Shown here piece after piece: positions 196-57,521 of a DNA stretch of 64,000 bases. The DNA is from Thioalkalivibrio thiocyanodenitrificans ARhD 1 (lineage in GTDB: Bacteria; Pseudomonadota; Gammaproteobacteria; Ectothiorhodospirales; Ectothiorhodospiraceae), in the NCBI RefSeq assembly GCF_000378965.1, contig NZ_KB900536.1:693583-757582 (forward strand), in the 5' to 3' direction. Position 1 is the first letter of the stretch. Each line of letters opens with the position of its first letter. The notes beneath the pieces were generated by a model. It was not told the origin of the DNA, did not search any database, and was given only the letters and a program-made list of their open reading frames with translations. A program made the translations under genes and the position numbers.

Positions 196-1782
196 CTACG
201 CCTTGTCCGGCCGGCCGGCGTCCATGCAGCGGGCAATGTCCTCCAGGGGCAGATCATCCCGCCGGGTGTCGATGGTCACCACGGGCTCGTCCGCCTCCAG
301 CGGGTCCGCGTTTGTCAACTGATGCGTCAGGACCTCGAGGCCCGCATCCGATGCATCCCGGTCGGCGGACTGCCGCTCCCGGATGCGCGCGCGGAGCACG
401 GGTTCCGGCGCGATATAGTCGAGGATGCGGAACGGGATCTCCAGTTCCCGGGCCAGCGCGGCAAACCGGTCGCGCCGGGCGCGCTCCAGGAAGGTGGCGT
501 CCACCACCACCGGAAGACCCGACTCGAGCACGTTCCGGGCGACTGAGGCGAGACGTTCATAGGTGCGCACGCCCATGTCCTCGGAATAGATACCGCTGCC
601 CACGCCGCCCGAATCACGCTCAAGGCTGTCCATGCCGGACAGGCGCTTGCGTTCCACGTCGGAGCGAATCCGGATCAGGCCCAGCCGTTCCACCAGCGGC
701 TGGCTGCGGGTGGTCTTGCCCGAACCGGAGAAGCCGTGATTGATGAACAGCGCGCGCGGGACGGGGCGCGTGAGGGATTCCGCCAGGTCCAGATAGCCGT
801 GACAGCGGGATTCCGCCGCGCGGCGCTCCGCGTCCGGGACGCCTTCCTGGCCGAGGCGGATACCGGACACCTTGGCGCGCACCATGGCGCGGTAGACCTG
901 ATAGAAGCGCAGCAGGCGCAGGCCTTCGTAATCGCCGCTTCGTTCCAGCCAGGCATTGAGGAAATGATGGGCATGGGCGGGGGCCTCACGGTCCATGAGA
1001 TCCATGGTGACGAATGCGATTTCGCTCATGATGTCGATCCAGCGCAGCCGTTCGCTGAACTCGATGCCGTCGAACACCAGCACCCGGCCGTCCACGTGGG
1101 CCATGTTGCCCAGGTGCATGTCGCCGTGGCATTCGCGCACGAAGCCCCGGGCCTGGCGTTCGGCGAGTATGTCGGCCAACCGTTCGAAGGCCTGCCCGGT
1201 CCACCGGGCGATGCGATCCAGCTGCTCGAGGCGGCGGGGGTCGGAAAGCGCTGGCCGCAGTTGCTCGAAATTCTGTTCCATGGGTTGGTAAACCGCGGCG
1301 GGCGTGCCCGTATCGCTGTCCGGCGCCGCACGGGGTATGCGCTCGTGGAACGCCGCCACGCACCCGGCCAGTTCGTCCATCCACTCGATGGGCAGGGCGC
1401 CGCGCTCCAGCAGCTTGTCCATTTCACGCTCGCGGTCGAAGCGTGCCATGCGCACGGCATACTCGAAGGGCTCCCCGGCGCCGTCGAACCGCGGGGCGTC
1501 CGGCGTGCCGCTGAAGGTCACCACGGCCTGGTAGAGATCCGGCGCCAGGCGGCGGTTGATGCGCAGTTCCTCCTCGCAGAAGAAACGGCGCCGTTCCAGG
1601 GTGGAGAAGTCCAGGAAGCCCAGATCCAGGGGCTTCTTGAACTTGTAGGCGTACGCACCCGCCAGCAGCACCCATGAGATGTGGGTCTCGATACACTCCA
1701 CATCGTCCACCGGATGGGGGTAGGCGTCGGGGCGTTTCAGGGCCTCGATGAGCCGGTGCTGGATGTCTTGCTGGTCGGTCAT
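196..1782 (-). CDS. Fused aminoglycoside-phosphotransferase-like / P-loop kinase protein
   Basis: Two-domain protein of 528 residues. The N-terminal two thirds resemble the aminoglycoside phosphotransferase (APH) fold, with the catalytic-loop motif HGDMHLGN at residues 219-226 and a following DGIEF that stands where the metal-binding DFG-type motif is expected. The C-terminal third is a separate small-molecule kinase domain with a Walker A motif GFSGSGKTT (Lys356). This two-kinase architecture is widespread in Proteobacteria as a conserved protein of unknown substrate; the APH resemblance does not imply antibiotic resistance. It stands alone on the minus strand, divergent from mrcB, with no obvious pathway partner. 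The first 195 bases of the window hold no gene I can support. The family call is firm, the substrate unknown. Confidence 0.85.
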   Translation of the reverse strand: MTDQQDIQHRLIEALKRPDAYPHPVDDVECIETHISWVLLAGAYAYKFKKPLDLGFLDFSTLERRRFFCEEELRINRRLAPDLYQAVVTFSGTPDAPRFDGAGEPFEYAVRMARFDREREMDKLLERGALPIEWMDELAGCVAAFHERIPRAAPDSDTGTPAAVYQPMEQNFEQLRPALSDPRRLEQLDRIARWTGQAFERLADILAERQARGFVRECHGDMHLGNMAHVDGRVLVFDGIEFSERLRWIDIMSEIAFVTMDLMDREAPAHAHHFLNAWLERSGDYEGLRLLRFYQVYRAMVRAKVSGIRLGQEGVPDAERRAAESRCHGYLDLAESLTRPVPRALFINHGFSGSGKTTRSQPLVERLGLIRIRSDVERKRLSGMDSLERDSGGVGSGIYSEDMGVRTYERLASVARNVLESGLPVVVDATFLERARRDRFAALARELEIPFRILDYIAPEPVLRARIRERQSADRDASDAGLEVLTHQLTNADPLEADEPVVTIDTRRDDLPLEDIARCMDAGRPDKA

Positions 1783-2037
1783 GGTCTCCGTGCGGGGCGG
1801 TTGTGAGCAGGCGTCATGTCCACTTCCCTGAAATCGGGATCAGGCGATCGAACGCAAGGGAGATGATCGGGTCAACAACCCTCTCGGCCCCGGCGCATGG
1901 CTTCTCGTTTCCTGCCGTTCGCTTTCAGGCCTCCCGTAACGAATGCCTGAAGGGCCGGCAGCGCCCCCATGGTACAGCATCCACCGGCGCACCCCTTCCC
2001 GGGACCGGGTGCACGGATAGGACCGGCCCAAAAGCTG

Positions 2038-2043
2038 TAGAAT
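2038..2043 (+). promoter_or_regulatory. Possible -10 element upstream of mrcB
   Basis: TAGAAT lies 9 bases before the mrcB ATG, which would give a very short leader. I see no good -35 hexamer at 16-18 bases upstream, so this is only a weak sigma-70 candidate. Confidence 0.25.
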
Positions 2044-2052
2044 GCCCGCCCC

Positions 2053-13974: not shown

Positions 13975-14138
13975 AGACCCATGAAAATAATTTCAAAATC
14001 AGCGTGATATTAATAAATTTTTATAAAAAACATTACATGGCACGGACTTCGCATTCATTTGAATCAAGCCCCCCGGCGGGGTCGGTCATCCGATCGTGCA
14101 CCGTGTCGTGACGTCACCTCCGCGATCGGATCACCGAC
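13975..14138. promoter_or_regulatory. AT-rich island and long nested hairpin between purB and roxA
   Basis: Bases 13984-14040 are strikingly AT-rich for this genome (ATATTAATAAATTTTTATAA), the obvious place for the roxA promoter. At 14081-14096 and 14123-14138 there are 16-base arms (GTCGGTCATCCGATCG and its reverse complement, one mismatch) that can form a stem, with the perfect palindrome GTGACGTCAC at 14108-14117 in the loop. The hairpin lies 43 bases past the purB stop, so it may stop purB transcription, though no T-run follows. Confidence 0.5.
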
Positions 14139-14180
14139 CGCTTGCGGCGCCGGGGTCGGCTCACTTCTTCTCCACCGGTG

Positions 14181-17058
<2,878 letters not shown>

Positions 17059-17059
17059 G

Positions 17060-17120
17060 AAAGTGGGAAGTGGGAATTGGGAAGTACGATTCCCACTTCC
17101 AGATTCCCACTTCCCACTTA
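17060..17120. repeat. Intergenic inverted repeat built on an AAGTGGGA word
   Basis: Tandem GTGGGAA words on one side and TTCCCAC words on the other form a long imperfect hairpin filling the whole gap between the convergent stops of fumC and the GGDEF-EAL gene; its last three bases overlap the latter's stop codon. It could end transcription from both sides, but its composition differs from ordinary terminators. Confidence 0.8.
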
Positions 17121-19076
17121 TGCCGTGGCTGTCCATCCATTCAGCAATGTGCGGAACTGCTCGAAGGGCAGGGGTTCGCTGTAGAAGTAACCCTGCACGA
17201 TCTCGCAGCCGAGGCGGCGCAGGAATTCCAGCTGCTCGCGGGTTTCCACGCCCTCGGCCACCACTTCAAGGTGCAGGCTCTTCGCCATGGCGACGATGGC
17301 GGTGACGATGGCGGAATCGTCCTTGTCGTCCGGTATGTCACACACGAACGAGCGGTCCACCTTGAGCGTATCGATGGGGAAGTGCTTCAGGTTGTTCAGG
17401 GAGGAATAGCCGGTGCCGAAATCATCGATGGCGAGCCGGACGCCCAGGGAGTGAAGCTGCTGGAACATGCCCACCGCGATATCGATGTCCTTCATGATGG
17501 TGCTTTCCGTCAGCTCCAGCTCGAGACGTCCGGGATCGGTGCCCGTCTCCTGGATCACCGCGCGATACTGCTCCACCAGATTGCTCTGGCGGAACTGGCG
17601 TGCTGACAGATTGATGGAGATGCGGGGGGTCTCCGCACCATCCCGGCCCAGCCGACTAAGGTCCTCGCAGACCTCCTGCAGCACCCACAGGCCCAGTCCT
17701 TCGATCAGCCCCGTCTCCTCCGCGATGGCAATGAAATTGGCGGGCGGTTGAATGCCCTTTTCAGGATGACGCCAGCGCAACAGTGCTTCGGCCCCGATCA
17801 CGCGGCCGGTGTCGAGTTCCACCTGGGGCTGGTAGTAGACCTCGAACTCTTTCCGGGCGAGGGCCTTGACGAGGTCGTTCTCGAGAATAAGCTGGCGATA
17901 GGTCTGGGAATTGATCTCCCTGGTGTAGAACCGGAAGCTGTTGCGGCCGCGCTGCTTGGCGTCATACATGGCCGCGTCCGCGTTCTTGATCAGCGTGTCC
18001 GCATTCTCGCCGTCATAGGGAAAGACGCTGATGCCCACGCTGCAGGTGAGAAAGACCTGATGCCCCTCGACGTCGTGCTCCCGGCTGATGATGCCGATCA
18101 GGTGCTGGACCGCGCGTACCACCAGGTCCAGGGATTCCACGCCATCCAGGATGAGCCCGAACTCGTCGCCGCCCAGGCGCGAGAGGGTGATGCTGGCAGG
18201 CTCAAGGTCGAAGCGCCTGGAGATCTCGTCGGTCAGAAAGGTCCTGTGCAGCTCGGTGCCGAGCAGCTTGATGAGCAGGTCCCCGGCCCTGTGGCCCAGA
18301 GAGTCGTTGACCCGCTTGAAGTTGTCCAGGTCCAGCAGAATCACGGCCAGGTTGGTGTCCCTGGCGGAACGCCGCGCGATCAACTGTTCCAGCCGGTCCA
18401 CGAACAACACCCGGTTGGGGAGGTTGGTCAGCAGATCGTGGCTGTACTGGTGCACCAGTTCCTCGGACTGGCGTTCGGTGATCTTCTTGAGTGTGCGCTG
18501 CTGCTGGTCCATGAGGCTGTACAGCGCGGCGCTCTCCAGGGCATACGCGGTGTTGAACAGGACGATGGACAGGAGTTTCAGGGCCGCCTCGGTAGTGCCC
18601 GCCTGTTCCTCGGACAACCTGCCCGCGAACATGCCGCGAATACGGCTTCGGGTGGAGATCACGTGCAGGATGATGGTGGACTGGCGGTCCCTGGATGGCA
18701 GGCAGACCGGATGGTTCTGATTGATGGCCCAGGCAAACATGCCGTTTCGGATAAAGACTTCCACCTCTGCATCGATGCCGGCCTCCGAACCGTCCGGCTG
18801 CGCATAGGAGAGATCGAAGCTGGACTCATCATCAACCGTGTAAAAACCGGCCTCGTCGAAGCTGATGATGCGGCTGAGACATTCGTGGGCGTTTCTGAGG
18901 ATCGACTGGGTGTCGCGATTGCGCTGGTTGTCGCCAAAGATGGCGGTCATGGAACCCAGCACATCCATGGCGTAGCTGTGCCACTGGTTGGTCTTCTCCA
19001 GATGTTCGACGCGGCGTTTCATGACTTCCATATCGGGAAGTGCATGATGCCAGGTCTTGGCCACTTCTGATGGCAT
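17118..19076 (-). CDS. GAF-like sensor GGDEF-EAL cyclic di-GMP protein
   Basis: 652 residues. An N-terminal region (about 40-190) looks like a GAF-type sensor, followed by a coiled stretch, a GGDEF domain with intact active site GGDEF (302-306), and an EAL domain with EALLRW (Glu430), DDFGTGYSS, KVDRSF and VVAEGVET. Both catalytic signatures look competent, so it could make or degrade c-di-GMP; no RxxD inhibitory site precedes GGDEF. No membrane segment is seen. Start 19076 lies 4 bases after the HDOD stop, with GGGGTAAG upstream; an upstream-extended frame through the HDOD gene is not credible. Confidence 0.88.
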   Translation of the reverse strand: MPSEVAKTWHHALPDMEVMKRRVEHLEKTNQWHSYAMDVLGSMTAIFGDNQRNRDTQSILRNAHECLSRIISFDEAGFYTVDDESSFDLSYAQPDGSEAGIDAEVEVFIRNGMFAWAINQNHPVCLPSRDRQSTIILHVISTRSRIRGMFAGRLSEEQAGTTEAALKLLSIVLFNTAYALESAALYSLMDQQQRTLKKITERQSEELVHQYSHDLLTNLPNRVLFVDRLEQLIARRSARDTNLAVILLDLDNFKRVNDSLGHRAGDLLIKLLGTELHRTFLTDEISRRFDLEPASITLSRLGGDEFGLILDGVESLDLVVRAVQHLIGIISREHDVEGHQVFLTCSVGISVFPYDGENADTLIKNADAAMYDAKQRGRNSFRFYTREINSQTYRQLILENDLVKALARKEFEVYYQPQVELDTGRVIGAEALLRWRHPEKGIQPPANFIAIAEETGLIEGLGLWVLQEVCEDLSRLGRDGAETPRISINLSARQFRQSNLVEQYRAVIQETGTDPGRLELELTESTIMKDIDIAVGMFQQLHSLGVRLAIDDFGTGYSSLNNLKHFPIDTLKVDRSFVCDIPDDKDDSAIVTAIVAMAKSLHLEVVAEGVETREQLEFLRRLGCEIVQGYFYSEPLPFEQFRTLLNGWTATA

Positions 19077-45923: not shown

Positions 45924-46208
45924 GTGAGATTCAAGGCGCTCGTGACGATCCTGCTGATGTCCCTGTCCCTGGCGGCACCGGCGTGGGCGGACACCCGGGA
46001 AGTGACACTCGACGTCATGGGCATGGTATGCCCGGCATGCCCGCCCAACGTGAAGTACGCACTGGAATCGGTGGATGGGGTCACTCATGCCGAAATGAAT
46101 CCCCGTGAGCGCCAGGCCATCGTCCGTTTTGATCCGGCCCGAACGAACGTGGAAGCCTTGCTGCAGGCCACCGACGATGCCGGCTACCCCTCGACCCTGA
46201 AGCACTAA
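45924..46208 (+). CDS. Periplasmic MerP-like heavy-metal-binding protein
   Basis: 94 residues. Sec signal peptide (1-22, cleavage after AWA) and one heavy-metal-associated ferredoxin-like domain with the metal-binding motif GMVCPAC (Cys36, Cys39). No merT, merR or copper ATPase is adjacent, so the metal (Cu, Hg, Zn) is unknown. It follows bioA by 33 bases, with GGGAGGTG upstream of the start. Confidence 0.87.
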   Translation: MRFKALVTILLMSLSLAAPAWADTREVTLDVMGMVCPACPPNVKYALESVDGVTHAEMNPRERQAIVRFDPARTNVEALLQATDDAGYPSTLKH

Positions 46209-46304: not shown

Positions 46305-47966
46305 ATGCAGCCCGAGCTTGTCTCCAGCGAACACCCTGAAAGCGCCTTGCAGGAATCACGATGGTTCCGGGCAATCTTCGAGAATGCCACCGACGGCATC
46401 ATTATCGCCGAAGTGGAAAGCCGAAGGATGCTGTTCGGCAATACCGCAATATGCTGGATGCTGGGCCGGCGCCCGGAGGAGATCAGGGGACTGACCCTCC
46501 GGGACATTCACCCGGAGAGTTTCCTGGCGCATGCGGAACGTGACTTCGCGCGTCTCGCCGAGAATCAGGGTGGTCTGTCGGAGAATATCCCGATGAAGCG
46601 CAAGGACGGCAGTATCTTCTACGCCGACATCACCGTGGCACCCATCAAGATCGGGGCGAAGCGTTACCTGGCCGGCTTCTTCAGGGACATCACGGAGCGC
46701 AAGCTGGCAGAGCAGCTGGTCAGGGACAGGGAGGCCGACTTCACGGCCATCGTCGAACATTCGCCCATCGCGATGCTCGTGAGCGTGGGAAGTGGTGCCG
46801 ATGACAGAATCATGGTGATGAATCAGGCTGCTTCCGCGATGATGGGATACACGCTGGATGACATTCCTGATCTGCGACAATGGTGGATACGCGCCTATCC
46901 GGACGAGAAATACCGCGAAGAAGTCCGCACCGAATGGACGAGGCGGACAGCAAGCGCCATTGAACGCGTCGGCAGCATCGAACCCATGGAGACCACGGTC
47001 ACCTGCAAGGACGGGACGACACGCTGCGTGAGATTCTCCTTCGCATCCATCGGGGACAGGAACATCATCACGGGTGAAGATCTGACCGCGCGCAGGCAGG
47101 CCGAAATAGCCTTGCGCGAGAGCGAGGCGCGCTACCGGAACATATTCAATGCCGCCTACGACGTTATCTATACGATCGAACCGGATGGCACACTGTCATC
47201 CATCAGTCCATCCGCCGAGCGGATGACCGGGTGGCGGCCGGAGGAGTGGATAGGGAAGCATTTCGCGCCCGCGGTCCACCCCGAAGACCAGCCCAGGGCT
47301 CAGGAGGTCCTAGAACGCTTGTTTGCAGGTGAGGCTGACCCCGGCGCCGAGATTCGCATCCTGACGAAATCCGGCGCGTACCTGGATACCGAATTCACGG
47401 TCGGCGTGCTCCGCGATATCTCCGCCCGCAAGCGGGCGGAAGAGGAAGTTCAGCGCCTTGCGACAACGGATGAACTCACGGGCATTGCAAATCGCCGGGA
47501 GTTCACCCGGATACTGAACAGAGAACTGGATCGTGCAAGGCGATATGGCACGCCCCTGTCCCTGATCATGTATGACCTTGACCATTTCAAACGGGTGAAC
47601 GATTCGTTCGGTCATGACGTGGGCGACCACGTGTTGCAGAAGGTCGCCCGCCTGGTGAACGACAACATCCGCAGCGTGGATACGGCGGGTCGGTGGGGCG
47701 GCGAGGAGTTCATGATCCTGATGCCGCAGTCGGTCGCGGCCGCGGCGCGGATCGCGGCGGAAAAGCTGCGCCAGACCATTGCACAGTACCGCTTTGATGG
47801 GGTTGGCACCGTCATCACGGCGAGTTTCGGCGTCGCGCTGTTTACGCAGCAGGACGATCGCGACTCGCTGCTCAAGAAGGCGGATCAGGCGCTCTACCAG
47901 GCAAAGGCGCGCGGGCGGAACCGGGTCGAAACCGTGATTGACGGCGAAGACATGCACAGCGGGTAA
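46305..47966 (+). CDS. PAS-PAS-PAS-GGDEF diguanylate cyclase
   Basis: 553 residues, no membrane segments, so a cytoplasmic sensor. Three tandem PAS units (about 20-135, 145-270, 275-385) precede a GGDEF domain with active site GGEEF (465-469) and an RxxD inhibitory site RSVD (456-459) five residues upstream, so an active, feedback-inhibited diguanylate cyclase is likely. The third PAS seems short: its last strands run straight from TKSGAYLDTEFTV into GVLRDISARK, missing about 10-15 residues usual between them. Convergent with sqr; the 228-base gap after it holds no gene. Confidence 0.9.
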   Translation: MQPELVSSEHPESALQESRWFRAIFENATDGIIIAEVESRRMLFGNTAICWMLGRRPEEIRGLTLRDIHPESFLAHAERDFARLAENQGGLSENIPMKRKDGSIFYADITVAPIKIGAKRYLAGFFRDITERKLAEQLVRDREADFTAIVEHSPIAMLVSVGSGADDRIMVMNQAASAMMGYTLDDIPDLRQWWIRAYPDEKYREEVRTEWTRRTASAIERVGSIEPMETTVTCKDGTTRCVRFSFASIGDRNIITGEDLTARRQAEIALRESEARYRNIFNAAYDVIYTIEPDGTLSSISPSAERMTGWRPEEWIGKHFAPAVHPEDQPRAQEVLERLFAGEADPGAEIRILTKSGAYLDTEFTVGVLRDISARKRAEEEVQRLATTDELTGIANRREFTRILNRELDRARRYGTPLSLIMYDLDHFKRVNDSFGHDVGDHVLQKVARLVNDNIRSVDTAGRWGGEEFMILMPQSVAAAARIAAEKLRQTIAQYRFDGVGTVITASFGVALFTQQDDRDSLLKKADQALYQAKARGRNRVETVIDGEDMHSG

Positions 47967-48194
47967 GTACCCGCGCACACGAAGTGTCCCGGTCTCGCTC
48001 AGGACCTCCCGGGCAAGCCCGCAAACCCCGGGCTCGGTTGGACGGGGAGGTGCCCTTGGATCAACTCATCCCTGGGGTTTATCCATCATCTCTCTGGCCA
48101 AGAATAACCGCTCCTTGCCAATAGGATATGATCACACGGGACCTGACACTTAATCTTTACTTCAGAAGGTGACAACAACGTGGTGGGACGACAG

Positions 48195-49481
48195 TCAGAG
48201 TCTCTCGGTGTGCTTCTTCAGGCGTGAAAGCCCCATTTTCTTCAGCATCCACCGTTCATAGAATGGCTCGCTGACTCCCTTTCTGAGCTTGCGCAGAAAG
48301 TACTTCTCGAATGCAATCTTGGCCAGGTGTACCCACTTGCCCTGGCTCGACCAGGTGATGTTCCGGGGCGGGATCTGTGGATCGGCGAGAAACGCGATGC
48401 CCGTATCGCCCAGATCGGCAAGACACAGTGCCACCCAGGTCCCTTCGTTGTCAGGCTCGTGCCCGTCGAGTTCGGCGCGGATGTTGCGGGCGGTCGCCGC
48501 GACCATGGATTCGATCATGTACCCCGTCTTCGGAGCTCCCACGGGAAGCGGCGTCTTCTCCACCGGGGGGATGGCGATACAGGCACCCACCGAATAGATG
48601 TTCTTGAAGGTGGGATTGCGCTGATGGTTATCAACGATCACGAGCCCGCGCGGATTCACCAGACCTTTAATATCCCGAACCGCATCGATGCCGGTAAAGG
48701 CAGGAATCATCATGGAATACTTGAACGGAAGTTCGTGGTGATCTCTGTCGTTGCCTTCGTCATCCACCACGGTCACATACATCTTTCCGGGTTCGACGCG
48801 ATTCACCCTGGCGTTGGTAATCCATTTGATGTGCCGGTCTCGGAAAACGCTTTCGAACATGCCTTTGGTGTCACCCACGCCACCAAGTCCGAGATGACCA
48901 ACATAGGGCTCGGCAGTCACAAAGGTCATAGGCACCCGATCGCGAATCTTGCGTTTGCGCAACTCGGTTTCCACGATCAATGCAAATTCATAGGCAGGCC
49001 CGTAGCAGGAAGCGCCCTGAACAGCCCCCATGATGATGGGGCCGGGGTCGGCCACAAAGGCGTCCCACTTTGCCGCGGCGGCGTCGGCCTCGTCCACATG
49101 GACCACTGATTCGGTAAATCCGTCCGGACCCAGTCCCGGCACTTCATCGAATGCCGACCGGGGACCCGTGGCGATGACGAGATAATCGTAGTCGACAGAA
49201 CTGCCGTCTGCCAGGACTACCCGATTGGCCTCCGGCTCCACCCTGGCGGCAGCCTTCTGGATGAACTCGATCCCCTTTTTTCTGAAGATCGGTGCAAGCT
49301 CAACCTTGATGTCCTTCGGCCTTCGCCAGTTCACGGCCACCCAGGGGTTCGAAGGTACGAAGTGGAATGTAGGACTATCGGATACAACGATCACCTCATC
49401 TCCCTTACGGGCGAGTTCCTTCATTTCGAATGCCATCGGAACTCCGCCGATGCCTGCACCTAGAATGGCTATCCGGCTCAT
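48195..49481 (-). CDS. sqr: Sulfide:quinone oxidoreductase family flavoprotein
   Basis: 428 residues. FAD-dependent membrane-peripheral enzyme passing electrons from sulfide to quinone. FAD motif GAGIGGVPMAFE at the N-terminus; cysteines at 159 (GASCYGPAYEF), 301 (GACIAIPPVE) and 353 (VALCLADLG). Relative to Aquifex SQR the pair equivalent to Cys156/Cys347 is kept (159 and 353), but there is no counterpart to Cys124, which carries the FAD thioether there. An amphipathic basic C-terminus (FLRKLRKGVSEPFYERW) fits membrane attachment. Start at 49481 has GAGGTG 7 bases upstream; a GTG at 49490 is also in frame. Subtype is uncertain. Confidence 0.87.
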   Translation of the reverse strand: MSRIAILGAGIGGVPMAFEMKELARKGDEVIVVSDSPTFHFVPSNPWVAVNWRRPKDIKVELAPIFRKKGIEFIQKAAARVEPEANRVVLADGSSVDYDYLVIATGPRSAFDEVPGLGPDGFTESVVHVDEADAAAAKWDAFVADPGPIIMGAVQGASCYGPAYEFALIVETELRKRKIRDRVPMTFVTAEPYVGHLGLGGVGDTKGMFESVFRDRHIKWITNARVNRVEPGKMYVTVVDDEGNDRDHHELPFKYSMMIPAFTGIDAVRDIKGLVNPRGLVIVDNHQRNPTFKNIYSVGACIAIPPVEKTPLPVGAPKTGYMIESMVAATARNIRAELDGHEPDNEGTWVALCLADLGDTGIAFLADPQIPPRNITWSSQGKWVHLAKIAFEKYFLRKLRKGVSEPFYERWMLKKMGLSRLKKHTERL

Positions 49482-49621
49482 GTCGATCACCTCGCTGGTC
49501 TAATACACACCTGAATGAATGACGAACGTCACCTCGAACGTGACCACGGGGCAGCCATAGGTTGGCCGTTGTGAACAGCGTCCTATCCTTGTACCCCCGG
49601 CAAGTTCGGCCCGTGGTCGGC

Positions 49622-50914
49622 TCATAAGCTGTACCTGACCCGGAGGAAAATGCTGGAATCATCCCGGAACTGACCGTAGAAGGTCTGTCGCCCGGTTCCG
49701 CCAAAGAAATGGGCGCCGCCGCTCACACGCAGGCGATCGCTGTGGCGGTACTCGATGGTTGGGCGCAGAAAGTAGTCCTCGTCACTTGGTGAGTAGAAGT
49801 TCATCAGTGACAGCACGAGGTTGTCACGCAGCATGCGGTAGGTGAGCCGCAGCGTGACCAGATGCCGGTACTCGTCGGGGCGCAGCGCCGGATCGAATGG
49901 CCAGGCCGGCCGGAGACGGTCGTGGTTCTGGATCCACTCGAGGTAATACTGGCCGCCCAGAGTCAGGTTGGTCGCCATCTCACGCTCGTAGCCCGCCAAC
50001 AGACGCAGCTCCGAGTTGGGGATATCAGGATTGTCCCCGCGGCGATCGTCCACCGAGTCATACCAGGCGAGTTCCAGGTTGTAGAGCCCGCCGCCCAGTG
50101 GGCCGCGCAGGCTTGAGCCATAGGCATTGAGCCGGGCGAACGTCGGGCGGCCGCGCCCAGGATCGAAAGCGGTGGGCTGACCGAAGAACCCCCGGTAGCC
50201 GTACAGCGCCCATTCGGTGGCACCGACAAGGCCGTGCACGCGCAGCGCGAGTTCGCCATTACTGAAGGTGCGGGGTGGCTCGTAGGCGTGCAGCCGGGGA
50301 GGGGCGGCGACCATCTCGCCGCGTACCTTATCGAAGTAGGCGACACGCGTACCGTCCACGAAGCGATCCGGTTCGAAGACGGGCGTCCAGACAGCGTCCA
50401 GACTGGCGTGCTCGCTGAACCAAACGAGGCGCAGGGCGTCGCTGGGTACCTTCAGGTAATCATCGTCACGCCCGATCAGGAACGATGGCCAATCTTTCGG
50501 AAACAGGTCGTTCAGAAACAACAAGTCTCCGGTGCCCCAGGTCAATACCTGCCGGCCCAGGCGAAGGTCGAATTGCCCCCCCAAGGGCAGGCTGACGTTC
50601 GCCTCGCGCAGCTCGCCGTCGAGGGAGTCCTCCACACGGTCGGCGATTCCGTCGGCCTTGAAGCGCCAGGTGACGCGATCGCCCCGGTATATGGCCTCCA
50701 ATTGCAGGCGCAGCTCGCCCAGGGACGCATCACCGGAGATCAGGGGCTGATGCCGGGTACGCATGCCCGCCGCACCTTCCACAAAACCATGCAGCACCCA
50801 CGGAGAGTCGGTTGATTCTGCCCATGGGTCATCGTCCTGTGCCGCCGCCGGCACGGCAGCGGCTACGAACCAGGCCGCGAGCAAATGGTGAAGCATATGG
50901 CGCATGGAGATCAT
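49622..50914 (-). CDS. Predicted outer-membrane beta-barrel protein
   Basis: 430 residues. Sec signal peptide (to about residue 25, AAAQ) and alternating beta strands throughout, ending in LRVRYSL, which fits the outer-membrane C-terminal signal only loosely (final Leu, not Phe/Trp). The RLGRQVLTWGTGDLLFLNDLFPKDW stretch resembles the DUF1302/alginate-export-like porin superfamily. Same-strand, 112 bases after the LolA-like gene. It likely forms the outer-membrane part of the RND export unit; substrate unknown. Confidence 0.7.
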   Translation of the reverse strand: MISMRHMLHHLLAAWFVAAAVPAAAQDDDPWAESTDSPWVLHGFVEGAAGMRTRHQPLISGDASLGELRLQLEAIYRGDRVTWRFKADGIADRVEDSLDGELREANVSLPLGGQFDLRLGRQVLTWGTGDLLFLNDLFPKDWPSFLIGRDDDYLKVPSDALRLVWFSEHASLDAVWTPVFEPDRFVDGTRVAYFDKVRGEMVAAPPRLHAYEPPRTFSNGELALRVHGLVGATEWALYGYRGFFGQPTAFDPGRGRPTFARLNAYGSSLRGPLGGGLYNLELAWYDSVDDRRGDNPDIPNSELRLLAGYEREMATNLTLGGQYYLEWIQNHDRLRPAWPFDPALRPDEYRHLVTLRLTYRMLRDNLVLSLMNFYSPSDEDYFLRPTIEYRHSDRLRVSGGAHFFGGTGRQTFYGQFRDDSSIFLRVRYSL

Positions 50915-51026
50915 TGCTGCCTTCGCTCCTGTCCTGATGGAGCTGAAACCGCCACACGAAGAACACGCGCGGCACGCATGGAATCGATGCGTTTCATGGG
51001 ATCATTGTCCTCTCGGCGACCACCGT

Positions 51027-51818
51027 TCAAGGCCGTCGCAACCACTTCCGGGGCGGGTTGCGCAGCGAGCGCTCGCTGAAGACCCCCTCCGGAATCTCCA
51101 GGTCGTAGGCGGTGAAACGCATCTCGGCCAGCGTATGGCCGCCGCTGTCAAGATCGGACATGCGCATGCGTGTGGCGGTCGGATAACCCTGGATCTGTTC
51201 GATCTCCAGCACCTCCATGCGCCGATATATGTTGCCCTGCGCGTTCTCGTACTCGGCCCGCGCCGGCAACCATGTCTCCCGGTCGATCCAGGTGGTGTAG
51301 GCGGCGAACTCCACTGTGCCGGAATCCATCGGGGTACTGCGGATGACGTAGTGCTCGTCTGTGACATCAGCCAATGTGTGTTCGTCGTCTTCCAGGTGGC
51401 GCCCGGAGACGTCCTCGTAGAAGAAGTGTGAGCCGACAAAGCTGGTGCGCTTGTCGCCGGGGGCGATGCGCCGCACCAGGTCGAGCCCTGGAAGGTAGAG
51501 CCAGCGGTGGTCGTCGGCGCCGGGGCGCTTGTGCACCAGGAATGTGGTGCCACGCACGTCCGCCGGGTGGCTGAACACGACCAGATAATGCTGCTCGCCT
51601 TTCTCGCCATTGCGCCGCAGCATCGTGAACTGGCGGGTCTGCTCGCGCCCGCGCCCGTCGACGATCTGCATGCGTGCCTCGGTGCGCCCGTCGTGTCCGG
51701 CATAGTAGGCGGCCAGGTGCGCGCGGCTCACGATCTCACGGGCAGTTGGCAGTTCCGCGGAAAGAGGTCCCGAGAGGATCACAGCGAGGAGCAGGCTCGC
51801 AGTCATTTTGATTCGCAT
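51027..51818 (-). CDS. LolA-like outer-membrane lipoprotein-sorting domain protein
   Basis: 263 residues. Sec signal peptide (1-22) and a periplasmic lipoprotein-carrier fold typical of proteins paired with MMPL-type RND exporters (motifs FLVHKRPGADDHRWLYLPGLDLVRRI and DVTDEHYVIRSTP). The start at 51818 lies 5 bases after the exporter stop, so the two are coupled. The open frame continues upstream inside the exporter gene; the signal peptide fixes the start. Probably shuttles a lipid-like substrate. Confidence 0.85.
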   Translation of the reverse strand: MRIKMTASLLLAVILSGPLSAELPTAREIVSRAHLAAYYAGHDGRTEARMQIVDGRGREQTRQFTMLRRNGEKGEQHYLVVFSHPADVRGTTFLVHKRPGADDHRWLYLPGLDLVRRIAPGDKRTSFVGSHFFYEDVSGRHLEDDEHTLADVTDEHYVIRSTPMDSGTVEFAAYTTWIDRETWLPARAEYENAQGNIYRRMEVLEIEQIQGYPTATRMRMSDLDSGGHTLAEMRFTAYDLEIPEGVFSERSLRNPPRKWLRRP

Positions 51819-51823
51819 GTTCG

Positions 51824-54421
51824 TCACTCCTGTGTGCGGGCGGTCGGCACACCTTCGGCGTGCCCGAAGAACAACCGGGGCCACGTTTCGAAGAGGGTGG
51901 GAAGCATGACCAGCGTGATTACTGTCGATGCAATCATGATGCTGGCCATGAATACACCCACGGTGACGTAGGTCAGCAGCGGCGCGGTCAGCAGCGGCAG
52001 AAAGCCGGCGCCGATCACCACGGCGTTGCGGGTGATGGCGCGGGCGGGTTCGGTGAATACGTAGGCGAGTGCCGTGCGCCAGTCGCCCGAGTCGGCCAGC
52101 GACACGCGCAGGCGCTGGATGAAGTGAATGGCGAAGTCGACCGACAGCCCTAGGCTGAGAGATGACAGCACCGCCACCGGCATGTCGTAGTCCTTGCCGA
52201 TCAGACCCATGACGCCGTAGATCAGCGCGATGGAGAGTGTCAGCGGCAGCATCGCCAGCACACCGAAGGTCAGCGAGCGAAACAACAGGATCATCATGAA
52301 CAGCACCACGACGAAGGCGGAGAGCAACGCGAACAGCATGCCGACCACCATCTCTCCCTGCCAGACCAGGTTGATGTAGGTCATGCCGCCCCATTGCAGC
52401 CGTACGCCATCCGGAAGAGGGTGCGCAGCCGTGAACTCCGCCACCGCGTCAAGTACGCGCTGCATGTCCTGATTGTCGCCGCTTGGGAGCTGAAGCCAGA
52501 TGCTGGCGGCGCGGTAGTCCTGGGTGACGAAGTGCCACAGATCGTGCGGGCGGTGCGAGGACTGAAAGGTCAGCAGCGCCTGCGCGACGCCCGCCGGGCT
52601 GTCAGGGATGCGATAGTCCACGGGATCGCCGCTCACCAGTTCCCGGTAGACCGTGCGCACGAGATCGGCAAGCGAATTGCTTTTCCCCACGACGCCGCCT
52701 TCCTCGAGGTGCGTCTGGAGCCGGGCCATGTAGGCGAGCGCCCGGGGGCTCTGGAAGTAGAGCAACTCGGTGCGCAGCCCCTCGGTCGCCTCCAACAGCT
52801 GCTCCCACACGCTCGCCTGCAGGGCAGGCGATTCATAGACCTTGTCCTCGAGCGCGAAGAGCAGGTTGTCCAGCCAAGTGCCTAGATCGTCCTTGCGACT
52901 CTGCTCGAGCAGCGCGCGCCACTGCCCGCGCATGTCCGCCGATGGCGCATCCTCCAGAATTGGAGCGACCCGCTTGTCGAGCTGTGTCTCTGGATCGGCG
53001 CCGGCGTGCTGTTCGAGTACCAGATAGGCCTCGTAGGTGCCGGAGAAGTGCTCGTTGAGCACGGTATCGGCGACTCGGATATTGTGGCTTTGCTTGAACC
53101 ACCGTGTGGGATTGTCGTTGACCTGGATCTGGCTGATCCCGGCCACGGCAAGCACCAGCAGGCCGACGAATACCACGAGCAGGGTGCGGGCACGGGCCAT
53201 GGCGAAGCGCCCGAGTGCTTCCACGGTCACGCACAGGCGGCAGCCGGCGCTGTGGCCCTCGTCGTCCTGATGGCGACGAACGCGCGTGACCATGCGCGTG
53301 ACCACATGTCGCGGCAGTGCCGCGGTGTAGGCGGGGATGAAGGTGAACGTGAGCGCCATGGAGAGCACCACGCCAAAGGCGACGAACGCACCAAACACCT
53401 GCACCGGTGGAATCGGCGTCAGGGTCAGGGAGGCGAAGCCGACGGCGGTGGTAAGCGCGGTGAACAGCACGGGTTTGAAGAGCGTATCCATCACCTCCGC
53501 TATCACCGCCTGTGGGTTGTCATTCGGGCGGCAGCGGTCGGCAAAGGTGGAGAGCACGTGCACGGATGCGATCACCGCGATGGGCATCAGGAAGATCGGG
53601 ATCATGGAACTCATGATGTGCACAGTGAAGCCCGCGCCGATCAGCAGTCCCATGGTAATGATCACCGTGGCCATTGCCAGCAGCATGGGCGCCATCACCA
53701 GAGCGACGCTGCGGAAGAAATAGAACATCAGGAGGAATATCACCAGCCCGGCCAGTGGCGCGGAAATCGCCATCTGCTCAAACATTTGCACGCCGAAAGT
53801 GTCCTGGGCAACCGGTTGCCCGGTGATGTGAAAGGCGTCTCCGGTCTCCAATGTGTCGATCACCGCCTGGATCTCTTGCGAGATCCGGTAGCTCTCGTTC
53901 TTGTCGACGATGGGTACGTAGATGCCTGCTGCTCGCCCGTCCTCGGAGACCAGAGTGCCGTGGAACATCGGTAGGCGCTCGACGGCTGCCCGGATAGCCA
54001 GTGACGCCTCGCGGTCAGCGGGCGGGCGACTCATCATCCAGTCGAAGCTGATGGTGCCGGGGGTTACCTGCTCCACGTTGTCCACCGTGGTGAGCGAGAG
54101 CAGATCGCGTGCCACCACGCCGTCGATACGCTCGATGGCACGGGTCAGCGTGTACAGCGCCCCCAGGGAGGCCGGGTTGTAGATCCCATCCGGATGGCCG
54201 TCATTGACCACGCCCACCACGATCATGTCGTGCAGGTCGAAGCGCTCCTTGATCGCGTTGTGCAGCACCCGGTCGGCCTGGTCCGCAGCGAGCATGTTCT
54301 CGGGATCGGTGTCGATGTTGATCCGCGGCATCATCGCACCCATGACCAACACCAACGCGACGAGGGACCCGAAAACCCAGCGCCGGTTCCGCATCGAGAA
54401 TATCGCCAGTACTCTGCCCAT
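51824..54421 (-). CDS. RND-superfamily (MMPL) exporter
   Basis: 865 residues, inner-membrane transporter with the two-fold RND plan: one N-terminal membrane helix, a large periplasmic loop (about 40-200), a group of helices, then a repeat with a second loop (about 420-650) and final helices. The motifs MMILLFRSLTFGVLAMLPL and SSLSLGLSVDFAIHFIQRL are MMPL-type. This group (HAE3/hopanoid-type) moves lipids or hydrophobic compounds. Forms a conserved trio with the LolA-like and beta-barrel genes. Confidence 0.9.
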   Translation of the reverse strand: MGRVLAIFSMRNRRWVFGSLVALVLVMGAMMPRINIDTDPENMLAADQADRVLHNAIKERFDLHDMIVVGVVNDGHPDGIYNPASLGALYTLTRAIERIDGVVARDLLSLTTVDNVEQVTPGTISFDWMMSRPPADREASLAIRAAVERLPMFHGTLVSEDGRAAGIYVPIVDKNESYRISQEIQAVIDTLETGDAFHITGQPVAQDTFGVQMFEQMAISAPLAGLVIFLLMFYFFRSVALVMAPMLLAMATVIITMGLLIGAGFTVHIMSSMIPIFLMPIAVIASVHVLSTFADRCRPNDNPQAVIAEVMDTLFKPVLFTALTTAVGFASLTLTPIPPVQVFGAFVAFGVVLSMALTFTFIPAYTAALPRHVVTRMVTRVRRHQDDEGHSAGCRLCVTVEALGRFAMARARTLLVVFVGLLVLAVAGISQIQVNDNPTRWFKQSHNIRVADTVLNEHFSGTYEAYLVLEQHAGADPETQLDKRVAPILEDAPSADMRGQWRALLEQSRKDDLGTWLDNLLFALEDKVYESPALQASVWEQLLEATEGLRTELLYFQSPRALAYMARLQTHLEEGGVVGKSNSLADLVRTVYRELVSGDPVDYRIPDSPAGVAQALLTFQSSHRPHDLWHFVTQDYRAASIWLQLPSGDNQDMQRVLDAVAEFTAAHPLPDGVRLQWGGMTYINLVWQGEMVVGMLFALLSAFVVVLFMMILLFRSLTFGVLAMLPLTLSIALIYGVMGLIGKDYDMPVAVLSSLSLGLSVDFAIHFIQRLRVSLADSGDWRTALAYVFTEPARAITRNAVVIGAGFLPLLTAPLLTYVTVGVFMASIMIASTVITLVMLPTLFETWPRLFFGHAEGVPTARTQE

Positions 54422-54530
54422 ATCGTTGATCCCCCTTCGGGAAAAGGGCCGCTCGACGTGCGGCCTGCTGCCGACGCGCTGGCACTCCGAGCGGAAAACG
54501 GCTCGTCTCTTGGGGCCGACTCCAGTGCGG

Positions 54531-54881
54531 CTAGAACACGAGGACCTTGTCCGCGTCCACCGTCCACGCGGTCAGTCGATCTAGCGTCGAACGCTGTGCG
54601 CCGTCGGCGAGCTCCTCGTCGGCGATCCCGCGAGCATCCATGCAGGTTCCGCAGACGCCGACCTCTCCGCCACGGCGCGTGACGACAGAGAGCAGGTGCT
54701 CGACGCTGTAGTAACCTGGCGGCACCTTCTGTCCGGACTTGGCGCAGGCCGCTGCATCGCCCAGAAGAAATATGCGGGCCTCAACTCCTTCTTGCTTGAT
54801 CAGAGCGCCGCCAAGACGCAGGCCATTGTAGGAACGTTCGGTGCCGTATGGGGGGTCGTTCAGGATAAGAAGGACTTTCAT
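54531..54881 (-). CDS. DsrE/DsrF-like sulfur-trafficking protein
   Basis: 116 residues, a single DsrE-fold domain. Cysteines at 46, 77 and 80; the last pair in GVCGTCMDARG is the likely persulfide site. Small DsrE proteins relay sulfane sulfur in sulfur-oxidising bacteria; this is a stand-alone member, not part of a dsrEFH set. First gene of the minus-strand array that ends with sqr, 109 bases before the exporter gene. Confidence 0.85.
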   Translation of the reverse strand: MKVLLILNDPPYGTERSYNGLRLGGALIKQEGVEARIFLLGDAAACAKSGQKVPPGYYSVEHLLSVVTRRGGEVGVCGTCMDARGIADEELADGAQRSTLDRLTAWTVDADKVLVF

Positions 54882-55038
54882 ATCGCTCTCTCCGGCTGGG
54901 ATCCCGGCTGTATGTGCCGGGACGCTGGATGGGCCGAACCTCTGTGTTCCTGTCGTCGGTCGGACGACAATCGATCTGTGTGAGGCTCAGTCATTCTTGA
55001 GGGCACCACGCGGCGCGCCTCATCCGTAGCCTAATACT

Positions 55039-55076
55039 CAATTGTCCAATTGATCGTTAGAGTTTTCGATTAATTG
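55039..55076. promoter_or_regulatory. AT-rich inverted repeats, putative operator
   Basis: CAATTG occurs twice 2 bases apart (55039-55052) and forms a palindrome. CAATTGATCG (55047-55056) also faces CGATTAATTG (55067-55076) with one mismatch. This lies about 160 bases upstream of the dsrE-like start, in an AT-rich island, and is a good candidate for a transcription factor site controlling the dsrE-to-sqr array. Arms are seen; the role is inferred. Confidence 0.5.
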
Positions 55077-55266
55077 ATTTTAGTCAAGCATAGAGACTAT
55101 TTGATCCTGCTCTGGGGTTTTCCCGGCGTCCGCCGGCGACGTAGATCGTGCGCTTGAGTCCCGATCAATTCGTGCAAAGAGGGCTCTACGGGGTTGTGGC
55201 TTGCACCAGTGCGCATCATGGACATAAATATCCACTGCCAAGTTACTGTGATCTAGAGAAAAAGCT

Positions 55267-55548
55267 ATGTCTGCTCGGCGGATTGAGGCGCTCCGGAGCC
55301 GCGCGCATGTGCGGCATCTGAACGCAGCGGGCGCGCCTACGAGACCGGCGAGCGTGCCACGCCGTTGCCGGTCCGGGCATTGCTGTGCCTGCACGTGGAC
55401 GCGTGCCGCTTGCCAAGGAGTGGCGGGGCTGGAGGATTCATGGCAATGCCCTGATCTCGCCGGACGGGCTGGAGTTCGGCCCCAAAAGAGATCGCCGTTT
55501 GTGCGCCAGGTGCTGCGCGGGCAACGCAACTGCCGACCCTACGAATGA
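55267..55548 (+). pseudogene. Frame-disrupted phage-type gene (DUF3653-like) beside dif
   Basis: Pieces of one short protein appear in different frames. SERSGRAYETGERATPLPV is followed by RALLCLHVDA in one frame, then PLAKEWRGWRIHGNALISPDG (written here as PLAKEWRGWRIHGN and ALISPDGLEF) in the next, and the C-terminus FVRQVLRGQRN in a third. The order (helix-turn-helix-like start, then WRGWR-SPDG) resembles the DUF3653 phage/plasmid family from memory. At least two frameshifts, so no intact product. The 900-base gap 54882-55780 contains no other gene. Confidence 0.38.
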
Positions 55549-55552
55549 AACT

Positions 55553-55581
55553 AAGTGGCGGTGTTACCGGGACCGCCACTT
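55553..55581. other. Perfect 10-base hairpin beside dif
   Basis: AAGTGGCGGT at 55553-55562 and ACCGCCACTT at 55572-55581 with a 9-base loop. No T-run. It lies just after the broken phage-type gene and may be its former terminator. Confidence 0.5.
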
Positions 55582-55662
55582 GCAAGCGCCCGGGCACGAG
55601 CGCCGAGGGCTCCGCCAAGTCGACGGTGCCGGGAGGGCCGCATGATGAGTTCTGCCCTGTCT

Positions 55663-55690
55663 AGTTCGCATAATGTATATTATGGTAAAT
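55663..55690 (+). other. dif: dif: XerCD chromosome-dimer resolution site
   Basis: 28 bases laid out as the XerC arm AGTTCGCATAA, the 6-base spacer TGTATA, and the XerD arm TTATGGTAAAT. Compared with the E. coli dif as I remember it (GGTGCGCATAA, TGTATA, TTATGTTAAAT) 25 of 28 bases agree and the spacer is identical. FtsK-activated XerC/XerD recombine this site to resolve chromosome dimers, and it marks the replication terminus. Filamentous phages and other Xer-using elements also integrate at dif. Chromosomal dif is the simplest reading; a phage attachment copy is the alternative. Confidence 0.88.
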
Positions 55691-55718
55691 CCTGTACCGA
55701 AGACCGGGGTCCTGACAA

Positions 55719-55739
55719 GGCGCTGTCCCCGACAGCGCC
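55719..55739. other. Perfect 9-base hairpin between dif and the rhodanese stop
   Basis: GGCGCTGTC and GACAGCGCC with a 3-base loop, about 40 bases past the rhodanese stop (minus strand). Probably stops minus-strand transcription before dif, though no T-run is seen. Confidence 0.45.
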
Positions 55740-55780
55740 ATTATACGGCATGACCCGAAGGCACTGTGATTCCGCCGCCT

Positions 55781-56518
55781 CTACCAAGCACCCACCTCGC
55801 TGATGTCAGGGATGATCACGGTCAACCCGAGCATCTGCCAGTTCTGCATGCCACCGCGATAGTAGTGCAGCTTTTCGGGCGGATAACCCAGATCCACAAG
55901 CGCCCGGATCGCCCGGGGCGACTGGTCGCACCAAGGGCCGTTGCACCACAGCGCCAGCTCTTTGGCCTCGCTGAAGTCCCATATGCCCTGCCCCTGCTGC
56001 GAGGCTTCTGCCGTTTCGATCAGGCTACGGACCCTGGTCCAAAGGCTGCTCCACCAGGAGGTCGCCTTCGGCTGGGCCGGCTTTGCCCCCAAGCGCATGA
56101 GCAGGTTGCGCATGGCCTCCGATTCCGGGTCGTCCTCGAATCGGGTGAACGCGATGTTCACGGAGCCCGGGATAGTGCCGCGCTCGAAAAAGCTGGCGGT
56201 CCGGGCATCCACCAGCAGGCCCCTGCCAATGGCCACCCGGGTGCGGAGAAAATCGAAGATCTCCAGTTCCCCGATACCATGAACACCGGGGGCGGGTATC
56301 GCGGGCGTAACACAGAACGGCGGGCACTTGCGTGATGTCCTCGCGTAGCCACCCGACAGTTCATGCTCCTCGTCCTGTATCCTTTGCACGCGCACCAGCT
56401 GGTCGCCGTGATTGACGTAGATATAAGGTCTGTCCTCTGTGATCCTGACCTCGGCATGGGTCGTCAAGGCCAGCATGACCCCCAGCAGAATCGGCAAAAT
56501 GATTGATATGGTTTTCAT
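55781..56518 (-). CDS. Secreted rhodanese-domain protein
   Basis: 245 residues. Sec signal peptide (1-22). A Cys-Pro-rich segment (RKCPPFC, Cys65/Cys69) precedes a rhodanese domain (about 85-230) with the active-site loop WCNGPWCDQSPR (Cys192, Cys197, Arg202). Likely sulfane-sulfur transfer in the periplasm. Its stop is about 90 bases from dif, so together with the dsrE-like and sqr genes sulfur-handling genes flank the terminus. Followed upstream by the small secreted protein on the same strand. Confidence 0.88.
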   Translation of the reverse strand: MKTISIILPILLGVMLALTTHAEVRITEDRPYIYVNHGDQLVRVQRIQDEEHELSGGYARTSRKCPPFCVTPAIPAPGVHGIGELEIFDFLRTRVAIGRGLLVDARTASFFERGTIPGSVNIAFTRFEDDPESEAMRNLLMRLGAKPAQPKATSWWSSLWTRVRSLIETAEASQQGQGIWDFSEAKELALWCNGPWCDQSPRAIRALVDLGYPPEKLHYYRGGMQNWQMLGLTVIIPDISEVGAW

Positions 56519-56562
56519 CTATGTATCCCCCCTGTTTGCCCGCCACGGGCCCCGGCGTTCTG

Positions 56563-56958
56563 CTACATGGAGAACGCCGCTTTCCTTCGTATGACCGATA
56601 TGCGGTTATCGTTCTGATATTCGCGGTAGACCGCCTCCTTGGCCTTTTTCGACAAACTTTGAAAGATGATGTTGGTTCCGGCAAAACGCTGATTGAGTTC
56701 CTGCTCGAACTCTTCCCTGGTCAGCCCGGGAGTCACGTACCTGCGCTCCATCACGGCCTCGGACCTGGATCCGTCGGATCTGTCGAGGGGTGCCGCGTTG
56801 TCCAGATGCTTGATTGATCCGGCTTCTTGCTCGAGTGCCTCGAGATATGCGTCAGCGCCCCCATGGGCGAGCATGGGACCCATTAAGACCCACGGGATCA
56901 CAACCGCCATGACGTACCGGGACATCCTCCCGACAACAAACCCTTTGTGTATCTTCAT
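56563..56958 (-). CDS. Secreted hypothetical protein
   Basis: 131 residues. An N-terminal hydrophobic signal (about 14-32, MAVVIPWVLMGPMLAHG) is followed by an acidic helical body and a C-terminal helical domain (REEFEQELNQRFAGTNIIFQ then LSKKAKEAVYREYQ). Cleavage is likely after AHG. No known motif. Start 56958 has GGA 5 bases upstream; earlier ATGs lack support. It precedes the rhodanese gene on the same strand by 44 bases, so the two are probably co-transcribed. Function unknown. Confidence 0.65.
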   Translation of the reverse strand: MKIHKGFVVGRMSRYVMAVVIPWVLMGPMLAHGGADAYLEALEQEAGSIKHLDNAAPLDRSDGSRSEAVMERRYVTPGLTREEFEQELNQRFAGTNIIFQSLSKKAKEAVYREYQNDNRISVIRRKAAFSM

Positions 56959-57521
56959 TGTTTCCAGCATCCCCCGCCCGGACGACACCCCCCGCCAACG
57001 ACCGGCCACTGCCCTTACCGGCGCCATCGACTTGCGGAGAGTTTCCCGCCGCCTGTTCCATTGCCCTGTGCTCCGTGCCCCGCGTCCACCCGCCCAACCT
57101 GTCGTCGGGCTCCATGTCCAGGGTGTGTATCGCACATTCCTATAGAAACGAAGTGGTTATGATTGATCTGGGTCAATCGACCGAAACGGCCCGGGACAAG
57201 CGGTGTCGATTCAGGGGACAGGCGGTCGCCGAAATGCGACACCCCGTTCGCCGCCGCCACGATCCCCGGGGTGAAGATCCGGCCGGGCAACGGCACCACC
57301 TACGACTCAACCTGAACCCTCGGGCCACCCTGCCCCACTTCCTTTCCTGCTCCTTCCCTCACCCCCCCCGGACGCTCCCTGCAAGATAGTTCCACACTGC
57401 TGCAAGAAACTCCTAGCGAGGACGCGCAGCGCGACCGACAGTTATACAGGGGGCATTCCCCCCGTGAGGCTGACGGCACATGTCCGTCGGGAATCGGACG
57501 ATTCTTTTGGAGACGAGAGCC
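56959..57521. promoter_or_regulatory. 563-base divergent gap before the Tad locus
   Basis: No gene can be supported here. It should contain the promoters of the minus-strand secreted pair and of the Tad locus. It carries an FNR-type box (separate entry), a GGGGG-CATT-CCCCC stem near 57449, and the flp ribosome site GGAGACGAGAG just before 57522. The last about 100 bases before flp are the flp leader. Confidence 0.55.
57163..57176. promoter_or_regulatory. FNR/ANR-type binding site
   Basis: TTGAT-CTGG-GTCAA matches the FNR consensus TTGAT-N4-ATCAA at 9 of 10 defined positions, and the flanks extend the palindrome to GATTGA-N6-TCAATC. It lies 346 bases upstream of flp and about 205 bases upstream of the minus-strand secreted protein. 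Suggests oxygen-responsive control of one of them. Confidence 0.5.

Follow-up and report, generated by a model that had tools for sequence, protein, structure and literature searches.

An RND–LolA–barrel trio next to a sulfide:quinone oxidoreductase gene in Thioalkalivibrio thiocyanodenitrificans: a candidate exporter of apolar sulfur

How does zero-valent sulfur leave a sulfide-oxidising cell? In the literature searched (titles and beginnings of abstracts, with few subscription journals and preprints), neither a transporter explaining its exit nor a description tying an RND–LolA–barrel system to sulfide oxidation was found. The question is raised by a 64,000-nucleotide stretch of the 3.75 Mb genome of Thioalkalivibrio thiocyanodenitrificans ARhD 1 (G000:C1:693583-757582), hereafter the window. 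From position 54881 down to 48195, on one side of a dif-like site, genes for a DsrE-family protein, an RND exporter, a LolA-like carrier, an outer-membrane beta-barrel and a sulfide:quinone oxidoreductase (SQR, gene sqr) lie collinear on the minus strand; the RND, LolA-like and barrel genes are referred to as the trio. We propose that this block is a horizontally acquired operon for sulfide detoxification or oxidation whose trio exports apolar sulfur, a reading to which we give a probability of roughly 0.4. That the trio is linked to sulfide metabolism appears very probable from its company in other genomes.

Trio neighbourhoods were compared in the best 80 loci from at least 555 RND relatives, obtained by a contig scan with the RND alignment. 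The control set comprised 20 loci from other genomes that surround paralogous RND genes in relatives; four of these loci are shorter than 17 kb. A LolA-like gene lay beside RND in all 80 loci and a barrel gene in 77, the other three (L145, L193, L205) all being cut by contig ends. At least one sulfide-related marker stood near the trio in 70 of the 80 loci and in 1 of the 20 controls (Fisher, 2.7e-12); the marker profiles behind these counts derive from the same 80 loci that were tested, and related genomes are not independent. A preliminary description of the window had called for such a comparison, and the recurrent association agrees with its view of a sulfide-related set. It had also held that conservation of the same genes in non-sulfur relatives would speak against that view. 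Heterotrophs, too, carry the trio, but in them it likewise lies mostly beside persulfide-sensor-like regulators and sulfide-detoxifying genes.

The commonest neighbour was an ArsR-family regulator of the BigR/HlyU group (51/80 loci, 0/20 controls), always within about 3.5 kb of RND in a scan that reached out to 10 kb. A YgaP-type transmembrane protein, whose representative carries the YgaP domain PF11127, was found in 41 loci and in no control. This protein was treated as a supporting sign only; disregarding it, an ArsR regulator or an enzyme stood near the trio in 58 of the 80 loci. Enzymes were present in 29 loci (30 if a weak sqr match, L174, is admitted) against one control (Fisher, 0.0057). 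They comprised type-I sqr (14 loci, no control), persulfide dioxygenase (PDO; 12 loci, one control) and rhodanese (12 loci, no control, at least one of them, L159, reading like the tRNA hydroxylase TrhO), together with one flavocytochrome c sulfide dehydrogenase (FCSD) and one SQR-like gene. The strict sqr count leaves out FCSD (L149), the SQR-like gene (L168) and L174 from the 17 loci matched by the profile at E 1e-5; by type I we mean SQRs of the Acidithiobacillus ferrooxidans kind. Each marker cluster was identified from one representative, and those of ArsR and PDO score below the curated BigR and Blh cut-offs (ArsR against BigR, 91.5 bits, cut-off 155). The ArsR representative aligned with HlyU, YgaV, BigR (biofilm growth-associated repressor) and a fourth ArsR-family chain that we take to be SqrR, and in 43 of the 51 ArsR neighbours both sensing-cysteine columns of this presumed SqrR hold cysteine. 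HlyU is reported to react with sulfane sulfur donors (PMC10509353) and BigR to belong to a group of persulfide-sensing regulators (PMC7315123). The commonest neighbour of the trio belongs to such a group. In the simplest interpretation, the trio would export apolar sulfur and be induced by sulfane sulfur.

The linkage with sqr has arisen or been lost repeatedly. Linked to the trio in 16 of 69 rows, sqr requires at least eight changes on the RND tree (83 rows, L159 being omitted because its contig equals that of G056 in length and was taken for the same one), with gains and losses not told apart. It precedes RND in Woeseiaceae-like loci, follows the barrel in Kangiella, Alteromonadaceae and the window, and is divergent from the trio in G054. 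Assembly in different gene orders across clades argues for a joint function. One Kangiella locus (L155) unites PDO, trio, rhodanese, ArsR regulator and sqr, and in Halorhodospira the neighbour of the trio is, judged from one representative, FCSD. Type-I sqr, the SQR type searched for, was sought in 45 of the 80 trio genomes (L180 not among them). In 5 of the 14 that hold it, the gene lies within the fetched flanks, where about 0.5% would be expected for each (P 6e-9, for 20 kb in 4 Mb and with kinship ignored). Among 96 relatives, type-I sqr occurred in three of the four genomes with an RND orthologue, compared to 14 of the 92 others (Fisher, 0.017); the 17 genomes were counted at E < 1e-100, and a fragment in G019 (4e-76) was left out. 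Of these 17, only the window's own genome and G054 have sqr beside the trio.

The relatives of the block differ in composition. In G031, genes for DsrE, an SQR-like flavoprotein, RND, LolA and barrel follow each other on one strand and, except for the flavoprotein, are 72-81% identical to those of the window; the sqr of this genome lies elsewhere. The surroundings of the G031 trio also encode a DsrE-family protein that probably has a signal peptide, as well as one ArsR-rhodanese and one VTT-rhodanese fusion (L118:5663-6298, 14057-14734, 16577-17521). The sqr of G054 (64%, surpassed as a match only by the window's own) is the one that diverges from its trio; this sqr is directly followed by another MMPL gene together with a YCF48-like one, as in AmeC/AmeD (L120:3519-7140). 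In G056, nothing but the rhodanese-domain gene of TrhO appearance was seen near the trio. In G086 and G068, DsrE directly precedes an SQR-like gene, and the 18 kb examined there showed no trio. DsrE was also considered as a general partner of the trio and rejected, as none of the 80 loci has it.

Several observations weigh against the proposed reading. No marker was found in 10 of the 80 loci, nor in 6 of the 55 with long flanks, and only 14 of the 45 trio genomes searched hold type-I sqr. DsrE is joined to the trio only in the window and in G031. No ArsR sensor adjoins the window block, the best match in its own genome lying elsewhere with 33% identity; the block thus lacks the adjacent two-cysteine sensor of a BigR/SqrR-controlled operon. 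Among the nearest RND relatives (L145-L150), the trio stands without sqr at its side, and none of these six genomes holds type-I sqr. Finally, an RND orthologue was found in just 2 of the 47 genomes of the family and not in G004. As G004 is taken to be Thioalkalivibrio sulfidiphilus, a producer of extracellular sulfur, the trio would not be needed for sulfur excretion in general.

The block borders on a site which, from its likeness, we take to be dif. Nearly the same site is present in the congeners G001 (two mismatches) and G002 (one mismatch), in both beside a gene pair for a secreted rhodanese and a partner protein; within 18 kb around this pair in G004, no dif-like site was found. In G001, about 220 bp separate the site from the shared rhodanese, behind which come the shared partner (92%) and genes read as pilus genes (92-97%), while on the opposite side a GGDEF gene (87%) ends about 1.5 kb beyond dif. 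The DNA in place of the block (L129, about 1510-3010) holds a gene that reads like a glutamate symporter, a reading of the sequence made without a search. The interval from GGDEF to dif, wholly different in these two genomes, is a variable site at the terminus. On this comparison, the sulfide block is a lineage-specific insertion ending at dif, or else was lost in G001. A search between 47.5 and 57.5 kb for another dif-like site bordering the insert, of the kind seen with mobile elements that use Xer, gave none with 10 or fewer mismatches, and this idea was rejected.

Because the rhodanese pair stays at dif in G001 while the interval is replaced, the pair belongs to the shared side and the sulfide block to the variable interval. 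The preliminary description had assigned seven genes around dif to one sulfide-oxidation and sulfane-sulfur set. All seven are present on the minus strand, and comparative linkage upholds the five genes from DsrE to sqr as one set; the rhodanese and its partner, found at dif in G001 without the block and paired in G002 and G004, were rejected as members. To judge from these arrangements, they are a separate, older pair across dif, outside the acquired block. More distantly, the pair also occurs in G061 and G094, which belong to other families. The partner gave no Pfam or NCBIfam match over 56563-57135; diverged extra copies lie near the pair in G002 and G004, a match was found in G003 and two distant ones outside the genus (L124, L130, L131, L112). 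The partner thus belongs to a small, otherwise nameless family. A type-I sqr and, 1.5 kb away, a homologue of this secreted rhodanese are found in G080 (L128:7965-11418); the gene separating them reads as a PAS-type sigma-54 activator.

A lower GC content at 48.0-55.1 kb had been put forward as a hint of acquisition. By gene, only sqr is clearly low (57.4%); the barrel, LolA-like, RND and DsrE genes (62.4-64.4%) fall within the range of ten neighbouring genes (59.5-67.2%), and 1-kb windows averaged about 62% for 48-55 kb, with about 63% ahead of this stretch and 64% beyond it. Low GC was consequently rejected as a sign of acquisition except for sqr. Acquisition itself is supported by the synteny with G001 and by the patchy distribution of the trio, and hardly by GC. 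With up to nine candidates scored per genome, RND matches of at least 50% identity were found in 4 of the 96 genomes, the window's own included, and the two family genomes mentioned above were counted in the same manner. In the RND tree, the window and G031 are sisters (support 99), joined to two Wenzhouxiangella rows (95), and the clade of eight around the window (100) also contains two Halomonas rows, Halorhodospira and Marinospirillum. Several of these are halophiles or alkaliphiles, and transfer between neighbours would agree with that. A related RND (43%) was also seen on one plasmid record, from Ilyobacter.

The individual gene assignments are collected in Table 1. Gaps in the block are 109 bp (DsrE/RND), 5 bp (RND/LolA-like), 112 bp (LolA-like/barrel) and 131 bp (barrel/sqr); the five genes may be co-transcribed. 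No promoter-like site was found, and terminator-like sites numbered 4 against 5.8 expected. The best inverted repeats before DsrE, in the window and five other loci, and in the sqr/RND gap of G054 were all dissimilar, so that no operator common to the block and its relatives was detected. About 780 bp between DsrE and dif (54882-55660) carry no assigned gene. The DsrE protein scores 76.2 bits against PF02635 (cut-off 22.7), which places it in the DsrE/DsrF-like family; it is closest to E. coli YchN (1jx7, E 2e-23), and its CGTC motif is kept in all seven aligned sequences, the window copy counted. It falls short of the TusD equivalog (24.9 bits, cut-off 89.25). The genome has 12 DsrE-family matches in all, including two strong adjacent ones near 1.114 Mb; its sulfur chemistry therefore need not depend on the locus at 48-55 kb alone. 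The RND protein, at 166.5 bits against TIGR00921 (HAE3; cut-off 351.9), is an HAE3-like MMPL/RND protein rather than an HAE3 member. The carrier far exceeds the gathering cut-off of LolA_like (30 bits) and has the LolA fold; its AlphaFold model (pLDDT 90.0) was matched by Foldseek with LolA3 of Porphyromonas gingivalis, a DUF1329 protein and LolA proteins (9tp6, 4z48, 3bk5). The barrel model (pLDDT 91.4) matched outer-membrane barrels, namely porins and AlgE. Outside the block, between genes read as bioA and GGDEF, a MerP-like heavy-metal protein is encoded at 45924-46208 (103.9 bits, NCBIfam MerP cut-off 92.55); no other mer gene was found among its searched neighbours.

Table 1. Features of the window (positions in the window; G001, G002 and G004 are other genomes of the comparison)
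Feature	Position	Strand	Basis or remark
DsrE-family (YchN-like) putative cytoplasmic sulfur carrier, first in block	54531..54881	-	PF02635
RND/MMPL inner-membrane exporter, HAE3-like	51824..54421	-	PF03176, 116 bits
LolA-like periplasmic carrier, 263 aa	51027..51818	-	PF17131, 182 bits
Outer-membrane beta-barrel, distantly DUF1302-like	49622..50914	-	PF06980, 18.4 bits, below cut-off 23.2
Sulfide:quinone oxidoreductase (sqr), A. ferrooxidans type	48195..49490	-	Pyr_redox_2; solved homologues
Secreted rhodanese	55781..56518	-	PF00581; orthologues in G001, G002, G004
Putatively secreted protein, rhodanese partner	56563..57135, start uncertain (possibly 56958)	-	92% identical in G001
dif-like site	55663..55690	-	single 28-base match, 0 expected by shuffling; search pattern derived from the window's own sequence
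Interval without DNA similarity to congener G001	47930..55660	.	left flank 88%, right 83-92% identity; ends at dif

The SQR aligns over residues 5-427 of 431 with its closest solved relatives, the A. ferrooxidans SQR structures (3t31 and others, E 7e-153), and shares both redox cysteines, Cys160 and Cys356. The third active-site cysteine, Cys128, is replaced by valine, while 30 of 35 aligned rows hold cysteine there. As far as the sequence tells, the window SQR is thus an A. ferrooxidans-type homologue with a changed active site. Cys128 of the A. ferrooxidans enzyme has been linked to product release (PMC6335251), and Val128 may change the product that is handed to the exporter.

SQRs are known to oxidise sulfide to zero-valent sulfur with quinone as the electron acceptor, and the window SQR would do so at the inner membrane. 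DsrE would take over part of the sulfane sulfur as a protein persulfide for use in the cytoplasm. S8 and long polysulfanes are apolar and dissolve in membranes; the proton-driven RND pump would draw this surplus from the inner membrane. The LolA fold, which shields hydrophobic cargo in LolA, would carry the apolar sulfur across the periplasm, and the barrel would release it outside, the three proteins presumably acting as a complex. Since S8 is apolar and the similarly built AmeABCD system expels apolar compounds, zero-valent sulfur is proposed as the cargo; by this analogy, the assignment is tentative. Still more tentatively, the widespread RND–LolA–barrel system may be a dedicated exporter of zero-valent sulfur, moving S8 or polysulfane produced by SQR and related enzymes from the inner membrane outward under the control of persulfide sensors in most carriers. 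If so, the exit of sulfur from Gram-negative cells would have a first defined path. The trio offers a concrete, deletable candidate in cultured heterotrophs such as Neptuniibacter, Kangiella, Bowmanella and Halomonas, and bears on biodesulfurisation.

The main rival explanation is that the trio repairs the envelope or exports lipids under sulfide stress, its cargo being lipids, hopanoid-like molecules or membrane components damaged by sulfur. The RND protein scores with HAE3 and HpnN transporters, below both cut-offs, lipoprotein carriers have the LolA fold, and the trio is frequent where type-I sqr is absent (31 of 45 genomes). However, sqr lies repeatedly flush with RND on the same strand, in seven cases within about 130 bp of the RND start, which is more than shared regulation needs, and we regard this explanation as somewhat less likely than sulfur export. 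Distinctly less probable is the export of a small organic persulfide or polysulfide, or of another sulfur metabolite such as alkyl polysulfides, instead of S8. The PDO, rhodanese and BigR-like neighbours deal with low-molecular-weight persulfides, as reported for the BigR operon (PMC7315123), but the same paper assigns polar species to TauE/YeeE-type carriers, and the substrates of the functionally nearest precedent are apolar hydrocarbons and a lipophilic dye (PMC6394551). A chance neighbourhood of unrelated genes captured at the dif-adjacent site, which the variable interval with its other DNA in G001 and the lack of adjacent sqr in the nearest RND relatives might suggest, is very improbable, as the same gene types accompany the trio in many genomes and in only 1 of 20 controls.

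How does the proposed apolar-sulfur exporter compare with known systems? The HpnN hopanoid transporters are RND/MMPL relatives of the window RND (87.7 bits, cut-off 751.85); HpnN is reported to act without partners in the periplasm and outer membrane (PMC6394551). The bigR/ygaVP/fisR sulfide-detoxification operons share BigR/HlyU-group regulators, the YgaP-type transmembrane protein, rhodanese, PDO and SQR with related trio loci. In the portion of the report consulted, their efflux part is TauE or YeeE/YedE (PMC7315123); by comparison, the window block has RND–LolA–barrel instead and no adjacent sensor. Closest in build is AmeABCD of Castellaniella defragrans, which consists of an HAE3 RND, a LolA/DUF1329, a DUF1302 and a COG4447 protein and protects against apolar monoterpenes; its deletion lowered the tolerance of unfunctionalised monoterpenes and increased Nile Red accumulation in CCCP-treated cells (PMC6394551). 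Like the window trio, it combines an HAE3-type RND, a LolA-superfamily and a DUF1302-type protein in one cassette. It lies beside catabolic genes for its toxic apolar substrate; the neighbours of the window trio are sulfide genes and not terpene genes. Unlike AmeABCD, the window block lacks a gene that could encode an AmeC (COG4447) protein, since all five open reading frames match other families, and its barrel resembles DUF1302 only distantly, which places it outside the AmeABCD-type tetrapartite systems. Thus, AmeABCD appears to be the nearest characterised relative in kind: by analogy, the window trio would work like it without being a member.

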